Below are positions 20,736 through 33,978 of a stretch of 64,000 bases of DNA, in pieces. The notes below the pieces were generated by a model. The model worked only from the letters and a program-made list of their open reading frames with translations, had not been told where the DNA came from and made no database searches. Source of the DNA: Chloroflexota bacterium (GTDB taxonomy: Bacteria; Chloroflexota; UBA11872); NCBI GenBank assembly GCA_026706485.1, contig JAPOYR010000003.1, positions 1 through 64,000 on the forward strand, written 5' to 3'. Positions within the stretch are counted from its first letter, which is position 1, and every line of letters begins with the position of its first letter. Made by a program: the position numbers and the translations under genes.

Positions 20736-22493
20736 ATGACGATGCCGTACAGCGACGACCTGATCCGGCGCCAATTGCGCTTGGGTGAGGACAACGGGTG
20801 GGAGTTCAAGGAGGTCGACTTCAGTAGCGCCCGACGGATCCGACAGCGGCGGGACGACTGGGCCGATGAGATTGCCGCATTCGCAAATGCCCGTGGCGGT
20901 GTGCTCCTGCTCGGCGTCACCGATGGCGGTGAGGTTCCGGGAATGTCCCGCGAGCGTCTGGACGAATTGGAACGACTCGTAGGAGACATTTGCAGGGATT
21001 CCATAACGCCGGCGATCCGAGTCGAGGCCTACCGTCGCGAGCTGGATCAGCGGTCGTTCCTGCTGGTCTCGGTTCCCGAGGGCCATTCCCAGCACGACAG
21101 CCCCGGCGGGAGCTATGTGCGCGTTGGCAGTTCGAAGCTCCCAATGACGCCCGACGAACGGATGCGTCTCGCGCAACGGCGAGGCCAAGCCCGCTACGCC
21201 GGCGTCGACAAGCAGACGGTTGCCGCCACCGGGTTTGCCACGCTTGATGAGCGGCTGTGGAAACCATTGCTCAGTGCCGAGAGCTTGGCTGCTCCGGAGG
21301 TGGGACTGGAGAAGCTCGCGCTGCTTGGCACAGACGTGCATGGCGCTACCCGGGCCACGGTAGCCGGTGTGCTGCTCTGCACCGAGAACCCTGCACAGTT
21401 TCTCCCAAACGCCGTCATCACGGCCGTGCGTTACCGAGGCACAGACCGCGCATCTGGGCAGATCGACGCGCAGGAGATCAGCGGGCCGATCAACCGCCAG
21501 ATCACGCAGGCACTCGCATTCGCTACACGCAACATGCGCGTCGGTGCGCGCAAGGCTCCCGCCCGTGAAGACTTGCCCGAATACAGCGCCCGTGCGCTGT
21601 TCGAGGGCTTAGTGAACGCGGTCGTGCACCGCGACTATTCGATCAGAGGGAGCCGAATCCGGCTGTCGATCTTCGCCGACCGCCTCGAACTCCGCTCTCC
21701 AGGCGCTCTCCCAAACAACCTGACGATCGAGAGCATGGGCGAACGGCAATCGACCCGAAACGAGGTGCTGACGTCGGTGCTCGGCAGAATGGACGCCAGC
21801 GGAGTCGAAGGCGCGGGAGGCAGGCAGTATTTCATGGAACGGCGCGGCGACGGCGTCCCTATCATTCGCCGCGAGACGAAGGCACTCACCGGGAAAGAAC
21901 CGACGTTCCGGCTGATTGACGACGCGGAACTCTGCCTCACGTTACCGGCTGCCGAGCTTGACTCCGGACCTGCGACCGTCACGATCACGGTGCGCCGGGA
22001 CAGTCGACCGCTCGCAGGCGCGGACGTGCTGGCGCTGTTTCCAAACAAGACATGGAAGCGAACGTCCACGGACAGCCACGGCGAAGCGCGCCTCGAACTG
22101 CATTCAACTCATCTGCCTATGACAGTGTTCGCGGCCGCCGACGGTTCCGTCGCATACGTCGAGCGGGAATGGGTCCCGGCGGAACGAGCGCTCGCCATTG
22201 AACTAACCCCGCTGCCTGGCGGCGGTTCGGTCGTGTTCGCTGAAGAGACAGGTTGCGTCCCCGGACTTGTGGGCCGCCTGAATCCAATCCTCGATACGAG
22301 CAACAGAACGTATCTCTACGCATCCAACATCGCCATAAACGGAGGGCGCCAACAGCCGGTCTCGTTCGTCCCAGGCGTGGAAGACCTGCACTTGATGGAC
22401 GCCAACGGCAACGATTTGCTCGTGCGCGTGGCAGCGATTGTCGGACGGTCATCGCTCCTCGAGTACCGCCCGATCGAGGTGAAGCCGGGGTAG
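20736..22493 (+). CDS. AlbA/Schlafen-domain ATP-binding protein with C-terminal extension
   Basis: A 585-aa protein. Residues about 15-145 form an AlbA_2 (Schlafen-like) domain: GWEFKEVDF, then AFANARGGVLLLGVTDGGEV. Residues about 270-400 match the associated HATPase-like C-terminal part: ALFEGLVNAVVHRDYS and LELRSPGALPNNLT. The last 170 residues begin with a carboxypeptidase-regulatory-like beta domain (PLAGADVLALFPNKTW) and end in an unrecognised region. Such proteins are often DNA-binding regulators or defence components. The gene is less G+C-rich than its neighbours and lies just after tRNA-Leu, suggesting transfer. ATG at 20742 is an alternative start. Confidence 0.75.
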   Translation: MTMPYSDDLIRRQLRLGEDNGWEFKEVDFSSARRIRQRRDDWADEIAAFANARGGVLLLGVTDGGEVPGMSRERLDELERLVGDICRDSITPAIRVEAYRRELDQRSFLLVSVPEGHSQHDSPGGSYVRVGSSKLPMTPDERMRLAQRRGQARYAGVDKQTVAATGFATLDERLWKPLLSAESLAAPEVGLEKLALLGTDVHGATRATVAGVLLCTENPAQFLPNAVITAVRYRGTDRASGQIDAQEISGPINRQITQALAFATRNMRVGARKAPAREDLPEYSARALFEGLVNAVVHRDYSIRGSRIRLSIFADRLELRSPGALPNNLTIESMGERQSTRNEVLTSVLGRMDASGVEGAGGRQYFMERRGDGVPIIRRETKALTGKEPTFRLIDDAELCLTLPAAELDSGPATVTITVRRDSRPLAGADVLALFPNKTWKRTSTDSHGEARLELHSTHLPMTVFAAADGSVAYVEREWVPAERALAIELTPLPGGGSVVFAEETGCVPGLVGRLNPILDTSNRTYLYASNIAINGGRQQPVSFVPGVEDLHLMDANGNDLLVRVAAIVGRSSLLEYRPIEVKPG

Positions 22494-26321: not shown

Positions 26322-28007
26322 TCACTGTATCGAGCCGAACAACCGTTCCTCGGGCGTGCGTGCGGACTCCGGGTCAGCCGCCTCGAGCGAGCGATCGACG
26401 GGCGGCAATTGTGACCGCGCCCGCCGCCATGCGTCCACCACGTCGGGCGACTCGCCGCCGTGGGGCGTGAGCCGCGGACGCACGCGACACAGCACCGTCG
26501 TGTTGACCGCCGCCCCCGCCACGATGGCCTGTCCTTTGCTCAGCGCCGGCAGCTCGGCCAGCAGCTCGCGTCCGGCGCTCTCGACCGCGCCCGCAATGGC
26601 CTGCTGATCGACGGGATTCACCACGCGCAGGATGCACTGGGTCATGCACTGGCTCAGCACATCCTGGTCGAGCTTGCCGGGACGCTGCGAAATCAGTCCC
26701 ACGGCAAACCCGAACTTGCGGCCCTCGGCCAGGATCTGCTTGAGCAGGTTGGTGGTGGGCACCTCCTCGCTAGCCGGCGCGAAGTGGTGGGCTTCCTCGA
26801 CGAGGGTGAACACCGGCGCCGGGAGGTGCTGCTCCTCGCCCGAGCCGATGCGCCCCTTGGCGGTGCCCACGCGACCGTCGAACGAGCGCCGCAGCAACGT
26901 GGCGGCGATGACTTGCTGCTCCTCGCGCGGCACTTCGTTGAGTTGCACCACGGTGCACTGTCCGGGGCGAATCAGCTCCTGCAGCGACGTGTGCTCGTAG
27001 TCGTCGAAGATGCCGTCCTGGCGGCCCAGGGTGGCGTTGAGGCGCCACATCAACGCGCGCTTGACGAGCATGTAGTCGGCGCCCTCGTCGCCGGCGTTGC
27101 GCGGGCCGCCGCTCAGCTCGACGTCGTTGACGGCTTCCGTGAGCTGCCGATACGTCCAGCGGAGTCCGCGGTCGATGCCAACGGCTCGCAGCGCCAGCCT
27201 GAGGACCTCGCGCTGCGGTCCGGACAGGCCGTGGGTCGAGCCGACAAGCTGATAGATGTCGCTCGGGTGCAGGAGGTCGCGGCGGATCTTGATCTGCTCC
27301 GGGCGCACCACCAGCGTCCGCGCGCGATAGCCCTCACCGCGGAAGCCCGGGTGGTTGGCAATCTCCTCGAGCGTGCCGTACTCCCCGTGGGGGTCGACGA
27401 TGACAACCGCCGCGCCCACCGATGGCTGCATCAACTCCTCGACGATCACGCCCGCGAGGTAGCTCTTGCCGGCGCCGGTGCCCGCGATGATGGCCAGGTG
27501 CGTGCTGGCGAACTCGTTCATGTCGAGCGTGATGGGCACGCGATCCCTGGCGCGCGTGAGCAGACTGCCGACATGTGCCGCGCCAGGCTTTCCATGCGGA
27601 TTCCGGGAGAGCGCGTGCGCCAGGTCGTCGTCCGGCACCAGATAGACGGGCCGTCCGGCGCGGGGCGCGACCCGCGGATTCACAAAGCCCAGCGCGTCGT
27701 CGAAGTAGCCCAGGACGGCGACGTCGAACTCATACAGCTCCGGCGTCGCGTGATCGAACCCGATAAGCTCCGCCACCCGGCTGGGCGGCACCTGCGGATC
27801 GGCCATGAAGGCGTCGGGATAGAGCTTGAGCGGGCGGCGCGCGTCGATGCGTCCGAGCACGGAGCGCAACTCTCCATCGACACGAGCGTCGTATGCCACG
27901 AACTCACCGATCTTGAGCTGGTCGTCGGCGTCAGGGGCGACCAGGGTGTAGGTATGCGGGGACTCACCCGGTCCCTTGGTGGTGCCGACGGGCACGGCGC
28001 CGCTCAT
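26322..28007 (-). CDS. herA: HerA-type DNA translocase/helicase
   Basis: A 561-aa hexameric ATPase of the FtsK-HerA superfamily that drives DNA-end resection with NurA. Residues about 15-120 look like the HAS-barrel (NurA docking) domain. Walker A GTGAGKS is at 176-182, Walker B VVIVDPHGEY at 201-210, the sensor strand TLVEEAHHFAP at 401-411, and LISQRPGKLD at 438-447 supplies the Arg finger region. The length and order match archaeal HerA. It is the last gene of a five-gene operon, overlapping the previous gene by 4 nt. Confidence 0.92.
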   Translation of the reverse strand: MSGAVPVGTTKGPGESPHTYTLVAPDADDQLKIGEFVAYDARVDGELRSVLGRIDARRPLKLYPDAFMADPQVPPSRVAELIGFDHATPELYEFDVAVLGYFDDALGFVNPRVAPRAGRPVYLVPDDDLAHALSRNPHGKPGAAHVGSLLTRARDRVPITLDMNEFASTHLAIIAGTGAGKSYLAGVIVEELMQPSVGAAVVIVDPHGEYGTLEEIANHPGFRGEGYRARTLVVRPEQIKIRRDLLHPSDIYQLVGSTHGLSGPQREVLRLALRAVGIDRGLRWTYRQLTEAVNDVELSGGPRNAGDEGADYMLVKRALMWRLNATLGRQDGIFDDYEHTSLQELIRPGQCTVVQLNEVPREEQQVIAATLLRRSFDGRVGTAKGRIGSGEEQHLPAPVFTLVEEAHHFAPASEEVPTTNLLKQILAEGRKFGFAVGLISQRPGKLDQDVLSQCMTQCILRVVNPVDQQAIAGAVESAGRELLAELPALSKGQAIVAGAAVNTTVLCRVRPRLTPHGGESPDVVDAWRRARSQLPPVDRSLEAADPESARTPEERLFGSIQ

Positions 28008-28588
28008 CCGGCCGCCTCGATGCGCGTGCGCCAGGCGATGGAATCCCGCAGCACGGCCACCGCGCCCGCGTGAGCCGGAAACGCTTCGACCAGGCGCTGG
28101 GTGATCGCCAGGGCCAGCTCCGAGGTCAGCGGGTGTCCGTGGGCCAGCAGCAGCGGCAGATAGGCCGCCCGCAACCCGTTGTCCGCGCTATGGAAGGCCT
28201 CGAACTCGGCATCGTCCAACCGGTGAACCGCATCCCCGACGCTGAGGGCATGGGCCACCACGCCCTGGGTGACCTCGCCGGCGGCGGACCGCGAGCCGAG
28301 GAGCAGCACCCCGATCAGGGTTGCGGTTTCGGGCAACTGGTCGGGGGCGAGCGTTTGCAGCTCGGTGCTGGTGGTCAACCGGGGCCCGAGCGCGCCAAAC
28401 TCGGGGTTGACCAGCGTGGCGTCGAACACGACGCCGATGGCCGAGTCGCCGGCGGACCGCGGAACGGCCACGAAGGTGCCGAAGGCGTAGTCGCCGGGCT
28501 CGGGTGCGACATCGACCTCGCCGGGGCGATCAACCTGCGCCACGTACTCCACGTGCGAGTTGGATTTCACGATCCTCGCGAGCTTCAT
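28004..28588 (-). CDS. unassigned 194-aa protein between nurA and herA, HAS-barrel-like N-terminus
   Basis: A 194-aa protein with no recognised family. The first 100 residues are rich in short beta strands (LARIVKSNSHVEYVAQV, then GDYAFGTFVAVP and IGVVFDATLVNPEFG) and resemble in pattern the HAS-barrel seen at the start of HerA. The second half is helical, ending in AFPAHAGAVAVLRDSIAWRTRI. There is no Walker or nuclease motif. It overlaps nurA and herA by 4 nt on each side, so all three are coupled and a structural or regulatory role in the resection complex is likely by inference. The start is ATG 28588; the longer frame to 28786 is an antisense-like extension. Confidence 0.75.
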   Translation of the reverse strand: MKLARIVKSNSHVEYVAQVDRPGEVDVAPEPGDYAFGTFVAVPRSAGDSAIGVVFDATLVNPEFGALGPRLTTSTELQTLAPDQLPETATLIGVLLLGSRSAAGEVTQGVVAHALSVGDAVHRLDDAEFEAFHSADNGLRAAYLPLLLAHGHPLTSELALAITQRLVEAFPAHAGAVAVLRDSIAWRTRIEAAG

Positions 28589-29757
28589 CGGCGCCGCCGC
28601 TTGCTCGCCGATTTCCCGGACAGATAGGCGTCCAGGCCGTTGCGGTCGGCGAACTCCTGGAACAGCGCGTGGAACCGGTCGCGGTCGGCCTGGGTCAGCA
28701 CCGCCAGCGCGTCGGCAGTCTCGGCGGCATAGGGGTAGCCGTCGGCCTGGGCCACGATCTCGGCGCGGACGACGTCGGTCATCCATTCAGTGCGGTCGGC
28801 CTCGACCACCCAGCGGGGAAACTCGAGCCGCGCGGGGCGGCGGCGGGACGAGGCGCGCAGGTAGAGAAAAGCCACCGACCGCTCGTGCTCGCCATAGCCT
28901 TCCAAGCCCGTGTCGCGCGCGCTGATGAACGCCGGCGTGCGCGCGCCCCACGGGGCGTGCGGCAGCCAGACACCGTCGGTGACGCGGCGCGGCGGCTCGA
29001 TGTTGCGCGCCGCCGCCACCATGGCGCCCAGGTCCCGCGCGCGGCTGGCGTCGATATATCCCACCACCGGCACCGCAAACGTTTCGGAGGCTTCCAGCAA
29101 GCGCACCACCGCCGCCACGTAACGCCGGCGCAGGTCAGGGTTCCTGACGAACGAGGCGATCAGACTGCCGTCGAAAATCGCTACCCGCTCCGACTCCGCG
29201 CCGGAGTCTTCGATCCACTCGGTCAGGGCCGCGCACTCGGCCTCGAACCGGCGCAGGTCCACGAGCTCGCGCGGATGGCTCTCCTGGTTGTCGGCGCCGT
29301 AGAGGTCCGTGGCCGGGATGGCCTCGAAGTGCAGGTCCTTGGAGTAGGCGTCCTTGGCGTGACCGTTCACGAAACGGCCGATCTGCACCGCGCCCACGTC
29401 GATCGACCACTCAGAGGATGGGTAGATCTGGCTCCCGTCCACGGCGCAGGTGGTGACGCCGGTGAGCGTGCGCATGGCCCAGGCGCGCCAGGATTCATGG
29501 GTGTCGCCGGCGTTGGCGGTGAATGGCCGCCACCACGCGCCGCCGGGCGTCGTGTCCCATTCATGGGTGGGATAGGCGCCCTCGGCCTCATCAAGGCCCC
29601 CGAGCGCATCGCCAAGCGCCTGGGCCGTGAGGCCGCGCACAACTCCCGCGCTGCGGCGCAGGCCGCCAAGCTCGTGCGCAAACGCCTGGTCGAGGGTGAG
29701 GAAGTCATCGCGCCGGCTCTCCAGCGCCTCGATCACTTTGGTCCGCGACAGCGTCAT
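28585..29757 (-). CDS. nurA: NurA-type nuclease
   Basis: A 390-aa protein of the NurA family, a Mn-dependent 5'-3' exonuclease working with HerA. The first catalytic Asp is in CAVDGSQIYP (DGSQ 107-110), the second conserved block is VAIFDGSLIASF at about 192-203, and GYIDASRARDL follows. The C-terminal region contains RLEFPRWV, the conserved closing strand, and ends in a basic tail. It overlaps rad50 upstream (29754-29757) and the 194-aa gene downstream, both by 4 nt. Confidence 0.88.
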   Translation of the reverse strand: MTLSRTKVIEALESRRDDFLTLDQAFAHELGGLRRSAGVVRGLTAQALGDALGGLDEAEGAYPTHEWDTTPGGAWWRPFTANAGDTHESWRAWAMRTLTGVTTCAVDGSQIYPSSEWSIDVGAVQIGRFVNGHAKDAYSKDLHFEAIPATDLYGADNQESHPRELVDLRRFEAECAALTEWIEDSGAESERVAIFDGSLIASFVRNPDLRRRYVAAVVRLLEASETFAVPVVGYIDASRARDLGAMVAAARNIEPPRRVTDGVWLPHAPWGARTPAFISARDTGLEGYGEHERSVAFLYLRASSRRRPARLEFPRWVVEADRTEWMTDVVRAEIVAQADGYPYAAETADALAVLTQADRDRFHALFQEFADRNGLDAYLSGKSASKRRRR

Positions 29758-32687
29758 GCGACTTCGACCCGACTCTCGCCGTTGACCTTGCGCACGTGAA
29801 TCACGTGGTCGAGCATCCGCTCGAAGCTGTCGTCGTGGGTGATGACCACGAGCTGCTTGAAGCCGCGCACGCGGAGGATCTGCTCGGCCAGGTTGGTGCG
29901 GCGGGTGTCGTCGAGATTTTGCGTCGGCTCGTCGAAGAAGGCGACGTCAATGTGGAGCAGCTCGCGCAGCAGCGCCAGCCGCACCGCCAGTGCGGCGGTC
30001 ATCTGCTCGCCCCCGGAAAGCTGGGTGAAGCCGCGGGTGTGCCCGCCGCGCTCCAAGACGATGTCGTAGTCGGGGGTCCAGCGAAGGCGTCCGGCACGGT
30101 CGCCGAGCACTTCGCCGAAGATCTCGTCCGCCGCCTCGCTCACGTCGGCCAGCAACGCCTCGGTGACCAAAGGGCCGGCAGTCCGCAGCACGCCGCGCAT
30201 AAGCTCCGTGCGCTCGCGCAAGGCCTTCGCTCGGGCGACCGCACGGTTCTCGACATCCAGCCGGCGCGCGACTTCCAAGAGTTTGTCCAGTACCTCTTGG
30301 CGCTCGGCTATCCGATCGGCGAGGGTCTTGGATTGGCGGTTGAGGTCCGCCACGTATTCAATGGCCGCCTTGTGAGCTTCGCGCGCCGACTCCCGCGCCG
30401 CGGGATCGGCCAAGGCGCCCAGCCTGGCCGCCACGCCCCAGGCGTCCGCCGTGCTGGTCACAGCGTCGCGGACCTGCGCCTGGATTTGCCGGAGGCGCTC
30501 GGCGCGCCGCTCGGTCTCACCCGCCAGGCGCTCGTGCTGGAGATAGCGCTCGTGGCCGGCGCGAGATGCGTGCAACTTCCGTTGGGCAGCCTGGACCTCC
30601 GCGAGGCGCGGTTCGAGCTCGCGCAGCGCCGCGTCGGCGGCGACCCGCGCCGCACTGGCTAGCTCGGCCGCTGCGTCCGCTTGCTGCGCGGCCTGCGCTC
30701 TGGCGTCCCGCTCGCCAGCCAGCGCCTGGGCCTGGACCAACCTGCCCTGAGCGCCGACATGGGGCTGGAGGGCTTGCTCCGCGTCCGCCAGCTCGCCGGT
30801 CAGCCGCGCGGCCTCGTCGGCGGCTTGCCGGAATTCCGCCAGCGATTCAAGCGCGCCGAGCAGTCGCCGAGCCGCGCCGAGCAGGTGATCGGGCCGCACC
30901 TCGGGCGGCAACTTGATTTCAGCCGATTCGGTGGCCGCGGCGAGCGCCTCCGCGTCCTCCCCCTGGGCCGCCGTCGACACCGGGCCCAGGGCCTCGAGCA
31001 CGGCCTGCGCCGCGGCACGGTTGCGCTGCGCGGCTTCCAGGGCATCGTGGCGCGCCGGCAAATCGCCCATGCGCCGCTCGGCATCCTCGGCGTCGCGCAC
31101 CGCCGTCTGCGCGGCAGCCTCACCGTTCGCCAACTGCTCGAGGCGGCGCTGGTGGCTCGAGGCGCGCTGCCGGAAGACCAGCGCCACATCCGGAACATCC
31201 GCCAGATTGCGGCATTCGGAGTCGAAGAAGGGACAGACGCGCGTTTGTTCCAGCAGCGCCGCCGCCTCGTCGTCAGCCTCCATGACCGCCGTCACGCTGG
31301 CGCGTTGGGCTCGCACCTGCTGCAGGGCCTCATGCCGCGTGGCGAGCTGATCGACGAGCGGCTTCAACCCGGACGCCTCGTCCCACTCGGCTTCGAGTCG
31401 TCGGACCTGCGCTTGCGCTGTCTCGACGTCCGCGGCGAAGCGCCTGAACCCCTCATCGAAATCGACTCGCGCTTCTGCAACCTGCGCTTGTGCGCGGTCG
31501 GCGCTAGCCGCGGTCGCTCGCGCCACCGCGAGGCGACCGTTCAGTTCTTGGACGGTTGCCGCCGCTTCCGTCTCCGCGGCGGCGGCATCGGCAAGCGCCC
31601 CTAGCCCATCGGCGGCCGCCTTGGCCTCTAGCAGCGACTGCCGCGCCTGATCGCGGGCAACCGAGGCGCGGGTTTCGTCCGCCTGCAGCGACGAGAGCCA
31701 TTCGCGCAGGACATCGCGCTCGCCGCCCACGTCCCCCAGCTTCCTGATCTCGTCCTGCGCCGCGGCATAGGCCGCATGGTCGGTGCGGGACGCGTCGACC
31801 TCGTCCGCCGCGCGTCGCGCCTCGGCCACCTGGCGCTCGGCGTCGCGCGCGGCCTGCTGAAGCATCAGGAGCTGCGAGTCGGCAAGCTCGGCCGCTGCGA
31901 ATCCGGCCTTGGCCGCGTCCGCATCCGCGTCATGTCGCTGCGCGGCCGCTTGGGCCTGGTCCAGCTTGCCCTGGGCTTCAGTGCGCTGCTGTGCGACGTC
32001 CCGGCCCTCGCGCTGCGCTTCGGCCAGCGCCGATTCCGCCTCGGGCCGGCGCTGCAATTGGAGCTCGAGTTCGTTGGCCGTGGTTTCGTGCGCGACGCGC
32101 CGCTTGTCGAAGTGGTTGAGCAGCGGGCGAAGGTCATCGACCGCCCGCTTGAACTCGTCGACGCGCAGGATCGGGTCGAAGCGCTCGCGGCGCAGGCTCG
32201 GGGTATCCAGGAAGTCCGCGGTGAGCCGGCCCTGCGGCACGCCGACGACGCGGTCGAACACCTCGTCCGGCCCGGTGAATCCCGCCACGCCCAGATGCTG
32301 CGCCAGGAACGCCTCCACGTCGTCGGCGCGTTCCTCGAACACGCGTCGCTGCTCGACGTCGAAAATCTCCGAGTCCATCGACGCGTGGGGCGACAGCGCC
32401 CCGGTGCCGCGGGCGCGCGTGCGGTGCAGACTGCGGGTCACGCGGTAGCGCCGCTCGTCCAGCCCCGAGGTGAACTCGATCGCTATCGAGGCATCCGTCG
32501 CGCCATGTCGCATGACGCTGGCAAGGGGGCGTGGGCGGGCATCGAACACGCCGAGTCCAATGGCCTGGAGAATCGCCGTCTTACCCGCGCCGTTGTCGCC
32601 CACGATGGCGGTGAGGCCGGACGCCATGTCGATGACCGCCGAGGCGAAGCTCTTGAAGTTGGTGAGTTCGATGCGGTGGATCAGCAT
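29754..32687 (-). CDS. Rad50/SbcC-like SMC ATPase
   Basis: A 977-aa ABC-type SMC protein. The N-terminal Walker A is GDNGAGKT (30-37), with a Q-loop VGVPQGRLTADFL near 150. A long coiled coil of about 190-850 is rich in Ala, Gln, Glu and Arg. Near its middle lies CPFFDSEC (485-492), in the place of the Rad50 zinc hook but with six residues between the cysteines. The C-terminal signature is LSGGEQ (890-895), with Walker B AFFDEPTQNLDD and the D-loop. Its partner Mre11 is encoded one base upstream. It tethers DNA ends and gates the nuclease. The start is ATG 32687, not the longer frame to 32900. Confidence 0.92.
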   Translation of the reverse strand: MLIHRIELTNFKSFASAVIDMASGLTAIVGDNGAGKTAILQAIGLGVFDARPRPLASVMRHGATDASIAIEFTSGLDERRYRVTRSLHRTRARGTGALSPHASMDSEIFDVEQRRVFEERADDVEAFLAQHLGVAGFTGPDEVFDRVVGVPQGRLTADFLDTPSLRRERFDPILRVDEFKRAVDDLRPLLNHFDKRRVAHETTANELELQLQRRPEAESALAEAQREGRDVAQQRTEAQGKLDQAQAAAQRHDADADAAKAGFAAAELADSQLLMLQQAARDAERQVAEARRAADEVDASRTDHAAYAAAQDEIRKLGDVGGERDVLREWLSSLQADETRASVARDQARQSLLEAKAAADGLGALADAAAAETEAAATVQELNGRLAVARATAASADRAQAQVAEARVDFDEGFRRFAADVETAQAQVRRLEAEWDEASGLKPLVDQLATRHEALQQVRAQRASVTAVMEADDEAAALLEQTRVCPFFDSECRNLADVPDVALVFRQRASSHQRRLEQLANGEAAAQTAVRDAEDAERRMGDLPARHDALEAAQRNRAAAQAVLEALGPVSTAAQGEDAEALAAATESAEIKLPPEVRPDHLLGAARRLLGALESLAEFRQAADEAARLTGELADAEQALQPHVGAQGRLVQAQALAGERDARAQAAQQADAAAELASAARVAADAALRELEPRLAEVQAAQRKLHASRAGHERYLQHERLAGETERRAERLRQIQAQVRDAVTSTADAWGVAARLGALADPAARESAREAHKAAIEYVADLNRQSKTLADRIAERQEVLDKLLEVARRLDVENRAVARAKALRERTELMRGVLRTAGPLVTEALLADVSEAADEIFGEVLGDRAGRLRWTPDYDIVLERGGHTRGFTQLSGGEQMTAALAVRLALLRELLHIDVAFFDEPTQNLDDTRRTNLAEQILRVRGFKQLVVITHDDSFERMLDHVIHVRKVNGESRVEVA

Positions 32688-32688
32688 G

Positions 32689-33978
32689 TCAGGGCAGCGT
32701 GGCCTCCACGATCGACGCCAGGGCCTCCTCGTCTTGCCCCTCGAGGACCGTGCGCTTGAGCTCCAGCGTGCGCTCGGCCAGCGTCTCGGCCTGGGCCGCC
32801 ACAGCCGGCTCTTGGGCCAGCAGCTCGCGCACGACGTCACGCTCAATCTGTTCCCGCGACCCGCTGCCGACGCGCACCCCGGCGCCCAGCGTGCGCTCAA
32901 CGTCCAGGGTCACGCGGGCGTGCAGCGGATCGAAGTGCTCCTGGACGAGCTCTAGCAGCGCCGCCTGATCCAGCGCCGCCCGCTCAAACCCCAGCTCCCC
33001 GCGCAGCACAATTTCGACCATCGGACGAGGTCCCGAGGTCGCCGACGGCGGATCGAGGGCCACGGCGACTCTCTCCCGCAGCGCCGCAGAGCTTTCGGCG
33101 CCGGTGACGTCGATGGCGAGACGCACGAACGGCCGGCGCTCGACCACGTCGTCGCGAAACCGCGCGTCGACTCGCGGGCGATCCCCAAATTCCACCGTGA
33201 CGTCGTACAGCCCGCGCTCGCGTCCCGCGCCGGCCAAGCCTGGCTCGCCCATCAGCCCTTCCGTGACGCTGTGGGCCTCGAGCGCGCCGGGGTTGAAGAT
33301 CCAGGGATCCGCGACGGGAACCTCGTAGCGGTAGTGGATGTGCCCCAGGGCCAGGTGGTCGGCGACGCCGCGCAGTTTCAGCACGTCGGCGGCGCCGACG
33401 CCTCCCTGACCGCCTGGCGACTCTTCATCCACCCCCGTGTGCAGCACGCCGACGCGGAACTGCACGCCGTCCGCGGGCGCCGCCTGCGCCGCCTCGATCA
33501 CCCGGGGCAGGTGGTCGGCCAAACGCGCGCCCAGGTATTCCACGCCGAAGATGCGCACCGGCCCGATGTCCGTATAGGCCCCGTGACCGCGCTCGGCGGT
33601 CCAGGGCCGCCACTTCAGCCCTTCGCGCTCCGGATCGACCTGCTGCAGCAAGCGGAGCCGGTTGCTCCGGCTGAGTTGCCAGAGCCAGGAGCGCTCGCCG
33701 CGGCGAAACCAGCGCTCGTGGTTGCCCTCGACGGCGACCACCGGGATCCCGTCGTGCGCGAGCAGGGCCAGGCCGGCGTCGGCGTCGGCATAGGTTCGCG
33801 GATCGATGGACTTGGAGTCGAACAGGTCGCCGGCCAGGATCACGAAGTCCGGCCGCACCTCACGGCAATACGCAATGACGCTGCCAAAGGCGCGGGTGAA
33901 ATCCTCGGCGCGCTCGGCCAGGCCGTATTGCCGAAAGCCCAGGTGCACGTCGGCGAAATGGACGAATCGAACCTGCAT
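32689..33978 (-). CDS. Mre11/SbcD-like nuclease
   Basis: A 429-aa metallophosphoesterase nuclease. All five motifs are seen: ADVHLG (9-14), GDLFDS (50-55), GNHER (85-89), LHTG (179-182) and GHIH (212-215), giving the two-metal site. The region after residue 260 is the capping domain, and the C-terminal helices would bind the Rad50 coiled-coil base. It acts as 3'-5' exonuclease and endonuclease in double-strand break processing. It is the first gene of the mre11-rad50-nurA-orf-herA operon; only one base separates its TGA from the rad50 ATG. Confidence 0.92.
   Translation of the reverse strand: MQVRFVHFADVHLGFRQYGLAERAEDFTRAFGSVIAYCREVRPDFVILAGDLFDSKSIDPRTYADADAGLALLAHDGIPVVAVEGNHERWFRRGERSWLWQLSRSNRLRLLQQVDPEREGLKWRPWTAERGHGAYTDIGPVRIFGVEYLGARLADHLPRVIEAAQAAPADGVQFRVGVLHTGVDEESPGGQGGVGAADVLKLRGVADHLALGHIHYRYEVPVADPWIFNPGALEAHSVTEGLMGEPGLAGAGRERGLYDVTVEFGDRPRVDARFRDDVVERRPFVRLAIDVTGAESSAALRERVAVALDPPSATSGPRPMVEIVLRGELGFERAALDQAALLELVQEHFDPLHARVTLDVERTLGAGVRVGSGSREQIERDVVRELLAQEPAVAAQAETLAERTLELKRTVLEGQDEEALASIVEATLP

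Follow-up and report, generated by a model that had tools for sequence, protein, structure and literature searches.

A predicted stand-alone HAS-barrel protein encoded between nurA and herA in Chloroflexota

The nurA-X-herA cassette

The window, which is the whole 64,000-nucleotide stretch of a Chloroflexota genome analysed here, carries on its minus strand a cassette in the order mre11-rad50-nurA-X-herA, with the following features:

32689..33978, minus strand: mre11-like gene, with a Metallophos match
29754..32687, minus strand: rad50-like gene, with its ATG start at 32687 and SMC_N/AAA matches
28585..29757, minus strand: nurA, 390 aa, PF09376
28004..28588, minus strand: X, predicted stand-alone HAS-barrel protein, 194 aa (barrel about 1-133, C-terminal helices 144-193)
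28325..28408, minus strand: codons 61-88 of X, the β4-α1-β5 connection, putative topological equivalent of the NurA-docking element reported for HerA HAS barrels (PMC12977600)
26322..28007, minus strand: herA, 561 aa, with its own N-terminal HAS barrel at about residues 6-133 in the model

The rad50/nurA, nurA/X and X/herA junctions are alike, each an ATGA with 4 nt shared on the coding strand. An earlier note on this DNA had X overlapping both neighbours by 4 nt, which is exact, as nurA shares 28585-28588 and herA 28004-28007. The Pfam identities of NurA (PF09376, E 1e-28) and HerA (PF01935, E 1.7e-37) are secure, and the match of the window HerA to the Pfam HAS-barrel model is weak (E 0.17) and below the cut-off. 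X is a real gene and not a chance open reading frame, given that it is uninterrupted in relatives, occurs at 73 named loci and has profile matches in Chloroflexota genomes. It is intact, with no internal stop, in 16 of 61 relatives (the window's genome counted among the 16), and nurA and/or herA adjoins it in these wherever the 1.5-kb flanks reach. The protein is acidic, with a pI of 5.0 in the window and a median pI of 5.1 over 57 proteins, for which the net charge has a median of -8 and is never positive. Elsewhere in the window, positions 20736-22493 hold a 585-aa gene whose start, we presume, resembles AlbA_2/Schlafen-type DNA-binding proteins.

Homology and predicted fold of X

Direct sequence routes from X to a known family failed. 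With Pfam, X found no family up to E 10, and none was returned for L054 and L090, two of its relatives; NCBIfam gave no credible match, and neither X nor NurA matches a padloc family. Against PDB sequences, the best hit of the X profile was a peptidase (E 1.2), while the profile of a second stand-alone family, termed A5, had no match. Aligned by hhalign with the HerA N-terminal alignment (A3), the X and A5 profiles reached probabilities of 0.6 and 5.8, respectively. The link between X and the HerA barrel therefore came only via structure and via a bridge through the A5 family. The 194-aa sequence is free of a Walker A motif, and Pfam finds in it neither an ATPase family nor the NurA nuclease domain PF09376, in agreement with the lack of ATPase and nuclease motifs claimed for it earlier. 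A HerA translocase is recognised by a RecA-like ATPase with Walker A and B motifs after the HAS barrel, and by this criterion X is not one.

The A5 proteins are about 205 aa long and are encoded next to or near nurA in other Chloroflexota. The profile-profile search that the earlier note proposed for X returned a match to A5 with a probability of 96.2%, E 2.4e-9, over 157 columns. Pfam already recognises part of the A5 family by sequence: among eight proteins compared with the HAS-barrel model PF09378, two lie above the cut-off (L119 and L120), three below it (L123, L132 and L118) and three have no match, the best member scoring 57.6 bits (cut-off 25.2; E 1.4e-15). At the level of sequence profiles, X is thus shown to be homologous to stand-alone HAS proteins, some of which are recognised as PF09378. 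Of the 20 NurA loci examined, 14 have a same-strand stand-alone barrel no more than 1.6 kb from nurA; the 20 are not a random sample, since 18 of them come from genomes without an X match.

The AlphaFold2 model of X (57 sequences) has a pLDDT of 88.8 and a pTM of 0.83. When searched against the PDB with Foldseek, all 50 of the matches listed are HerA-type chains (E 7.9e-7 to 4.2e-5), taken from HerA, HerA-NurA and HerA-nuclease defence complexes; some of these entries are titled just 'bacterial protein' or 'anti-phage defense complex' and are named HerA in another listing. By VIA-align, the best match is 8wod_D (Z 12.4, rmsd 2.7 Å, 110 residues aligned), and D. radiodurans HerA 7wrw_A scores Z 10.7. 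An F1-type origin of X was considered and dropped, as the F1-ATPase crowns among the matches listed score below the HerA barrels, at Z 8.9 and less. The N-terminus of the window HerA, modelled separately (pLDDT 80.5), also has HerA chains as its best matches (Z 11.4). In the two models, strands and helices follow the same order: E2-9, E14-19, E39-43, E49-60, H74-80, E89-100, E106-108, E120-123 and H126-133 in X, and E6-13, E19-25, E36-43, E46-59, H75-81, E91-103, E107-109, E120-123 and H126-133 in HerA, with one extra short helix on each side (X 31-34, HerA 65-69). The fold of X is therefore predicted to be a HerA-type HAS barrel, and the model matches and element order make X look like the docking domain of HerA followed by C-terminal helices (144-193) in the place of the motor. 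The earlier guess of a detached HAS barrel is supported by this predicted fold together with the profile homology to stand-alone proteins of the Pfam HAS-barrel family. The three N-terminal stretches that had been named as HAS-like fall in the model on β2 (14-19), on β3 with the end of its preceding loop (32-43) and on β4 (51-61).

Distribution and co-occurrence with NurA

One scan of genome contigs yielded 73 named loci that encode X relatives at 31-97% identity. Their hosts are mostly Chloroflexota (Anaerolineae, Caldilineaceae, Ktedonobacteria and others) and Acidobacteriota, with single loci in Cloacimonetes, Nitrospinota, a Proteobacteria-labelled MAG and a Thermofilaceae MAG. A survey of the position of X in other genomes had been suggested, and in 65 of the 73 loci X is kept next to one or both of nurA and herA: 22 have nurA-X-herA, 27 X-herA only and 16 nurA-X only, and of the remaining 8, five lie at contig ends. 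An unrelated fold together with absence from homologous operons had been named as what would refute a detached barrel, and the predicted fold and the conserved gene position both came out opposite. The examined stretch also contains mre11 and rad50 in 19 of the 73 loci. When the operon splits, X keeps one partner, herA in Ktedonobacteria and nurA in Acidobacteriota. All 14 genomes reached via chosen X loci (11 loci without an adjacent herA) have a HerA match; in 13 of them it extends over the greater part of the protein at 47-54% identity, and the fourteenth, the Thermofilaceae MAG, has just partial matches of 39-46% identity besides weaker ones. A frameshifted NurA-X or X-HerA fusion was dropped as an explanation, as the gaps run from -13 to more than 900 nt between genomes, with small gaps approximate because starts were chosen by rule.

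Several loci differ in their details. One family of the same class has a gene of about 258 aa inserted between X and herA (L035:8657-9430; X-herA gaps of 924-1030 nt in L035 and L046), and the start of this gene resembles an HpcH/HpaI aldolase. In the Acidobacteriota loci (L064-L092), about 520-910 nt separate nurA from X. Ktedonobacteria X proteins (L051-L061, L063) carry a long insertion between β3 and β4 and have herA adjacent, and in genomes of that kind nurA is located elsewhere. The contig-end X labelled as a Thermofilaceae archaeon (L093:7826-8380) and that of a Nitrospinota MAG (L075:4755-5309) have identical last 30 residues, and at the Thermofilaceae locus we would sooner assume a stray or chimeric contig than an X of archaeal origin.

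Among 400 Chloroflexota genomes, at least 72 have X profile matches, at least 151 have the A5 family and 236 have NurA; the first two counts are lower bounds because at most 7-8 candidates were scored per genome, and each co-occurrence count depends on one profile search. NurA is present in 70 of the 72 X genomes, in 150 of the 151 A5 genomes and in 217 of the 220 with either stand-alone barrel. Conversely, 217 of the 236 NurA genomes have a stand-alone barrel (Fisher p 2e-85, shared ancestry ignored). Three genomes (G080, G224 and G283) belong to both barrel sets, two of them via a weak X match (2.2e-5). Among 99 genomes of the Acidobacteriota phylum, 4 carry X, and the 3 that carry NurA are all among these 4 (p 2.6e-5). 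The Ktedonobacter X, used as query in the 19 NurA genomes in which neither barrel was detected, found no match in a run without positive control, which is uninformative alone. Two of the 19 (G130 and G249) hold window-type HerA fragments in short frames (62% and 73% identity), and the others have distant or no HerA matches. Since the HerA of G130 and G249 is fragmentary, assembly loss may account for some of the missing barrels.

HerA was compared in 49 chosen genomes, comprising 10 with X, 10 with the second family, 10 with neither barrel nor NurA, and the 19 with NurA only. All 10 X genomes have a window-type HerA, namely the window's own and nine at 50-57% identity (one in two pieces). By comparison, the window HerA (P0002) finds no more than distant counterparts in the 10 second-family genomes, and none of the 10 with neither barrel nor NurA has a strong match. 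The window's genome also encodes further HerA-like ATPases away from the X locus (L001-L004; G000:C2, C10 and C11), perhaps of defence type.

Candidate roles of X and comparison with known systems

The coupling of a six-fold HerA ring to a two-fold NurA dimer is unsettled, as is the cellular function of HerA-NurA, and a 2026 Thermococcus paper casts doubt on a role in end resection (PMC12977600). In the Thermococcus complex, the HAS domain is described as touching NurA via α1 and its preceding loop (PMC12977600), and in Deinococcus, whose complex has the HAS barrels contacting NurA, an acidic patch of HerA (D78/E80/D81) is reported as required (PMC9960219). The equivalent β4-α1-β5 stretch of X, placed by secondary-structure order rather than by residue-level superposition, holds 7 of the 19 invariant and 3 of the 10 near-invariant columns of alignment A2. 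Conserved columns are enriched in residues 61-88 (10 of 28 positions versus 19 of 166; one-sided p 0.0025), a stretch chosen after the published docking description (PMC12977600), and the β1-β2 hairpin is at least as conserved. Model confidence is also lowest in this stretch (block mean pLDDT 62-69), and the stretch, being conserved yet unsettled, resembles a docking surface still lacking its partner. HerA keeps conserved residues of its own in the same connection (P64, F67, P71, P75, A79 and G83), indicating that X would add to HerA and not replace its docking domain.

That X, or a barrel like it, is nearly always found with NurA in Chloroflexota suggests that the NurA-HerA machine may include a third component not yet described. 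On balance, we favour X as a motor-less HAS barrel that docks on NurA as a third subunit and structural adaptor. The docking domain of a HerA-type protein would here be encoded separately and produced in step with NurA and HerA. X would dock the NurA dimer, most likely through the β4-α1-β5 loop and helix as HerA does, and would then complete or gate the interface between NurA and the HAS crown, allowing the six-fold ring to couple to the two-fold dimer. That X docks at this site, has NurA as its partner, acts as an adaptor and is a physical subunit of the resection complex is our inference. Against the adaptor stand the missing match of the X profile to the HerA N-terminal domain, the 19 of 236 NurA genomes in which neither barrel was detected, and the Deinococcus and Thermococcus NurA-HerA, which are reported to function as 2:6 complexes without such a protein (PMC9960219, PMC12977600).

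X might instead be a regulator that mimics the docking face of HerA, takes up its place on NurA in the absence of HerA and holds the nuclease off until HerA displaces it. The shared fold and conserved docking stretch in the models would fit, as would retention of X with nurA at the 16 loci where herA is elsewhere and the acidity of X, which recalls the reported NurA-binding face of drHerA (PMC9960219). However, the nuclease activity of drNurA by itself is reported to be low, so that the need for a keeper is not obvious (PMC12977600). Moreover, X stays with herA and not nurA at 27 loci, which is unexpected for a NurA antidote, and we consider this role rather unlikely. X could also sit in the HerA ring, as an extra or substitute barrel on the HAS crown that sets ring size or opening and meets NurA indirectly. 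F1-ATPase crowns combine non-identical barrels, and the presence of window-type HerA in all X genomes compared (10/10), against none of the second-family genomes (0/10) and none of those with neither barrel nor NurA (0/10), points the same way. However, co-occurrence with NurA is likewise near total and 16 of the 73 loci pair X with nurA and not herA, making such a placement quite unlikely.

A third possibility is that X is a small-β-barrel factor of end processing that binds DNA or guides strands, as opposed to a protein-docking subunit. A 2026 survey is reported to place HAS barrels in a DNA-binding small-β-barrel assemblage (PMC12839542), and the HAS ring is described as the putative DNA exit of HerA (PMC9960219). 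The consistently negative charge of X and its relatives nevertheless speaks against general DNA binding, and we regard this function as distinctly unlikely. Finally, the link of X to resection comes from genomic data, and eight loci, five of them at contig ends, have neither neighbour close by, as would suit an unrelated function brought along by chance or operon hitch-hiking; given that co-occurrence extends over hundreds of genomes and that one partner is retained after the operon splits, this is very improbable.

If X is an adaptor, then the HAS barrel, known as the docking domain of rotary and DNA-pumping ATPases, also works as a free subunit, and a separate barrel that tracks NurA through hundreds of genomes offers a handle on the coupling and role of HerA-NurA. 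More broadly, and more tentatively, the Chloroflexota and those Acidobacteriota that carry the system may have three-part NurA-HerA machines with an obligatory motor-less barrel, drawn from two anciently diverged families that each have their own kind of HerA. On this view it is the two-part textbook complex that would be exceptional, having lost the third part or never possessed it. Our literature search, which covered titles and the starts of abstracts, found no separate HAS-barrel gene beside nurA; Iyer et al. (2004; 10.1093/nar/gkh828), to go by the title a survey of the FtsK-HerA superfamily, may already describe stand-alone HAS barrels.

Compared with the HAS barrel of HerA (PF09378; PDB 7wrw, 9x1m and 4d2i), X is alike in predicted fold, element order, β4-β5 loop-helix and gene neighbourhood, but has no fused RecA-like ATPase, has extra C-terminal helices and is missed by the Pfam model. 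With the A5 barrels X shares its size, the HAS barrel, the nurA neighbourhood and the profile homology, but identity is 22% (L119 versus P0001), the HerA of the A5 genomes compared is only distantly similar to that of the window, and X has no counterpart to the PF09378 matches of some A5 members. The D. radiodurans and T. kodakarensis systems, like the window, combine NurA with a HerA whose HAS barrels are the docking part, but are described as two-component 2:6 complexes, with no mention of a separate HAS-barrel subunit in those descriptions (PMC9960219, PMC12977600). The structural matches that rank highest for X include HAS barrels of the HerA-SIR2 and HerA-DUF4297 defence complexes; in contrast to these systems, X and NurA match no padloc family, and the neighbours here are NurA, Rad50 and Mre11.
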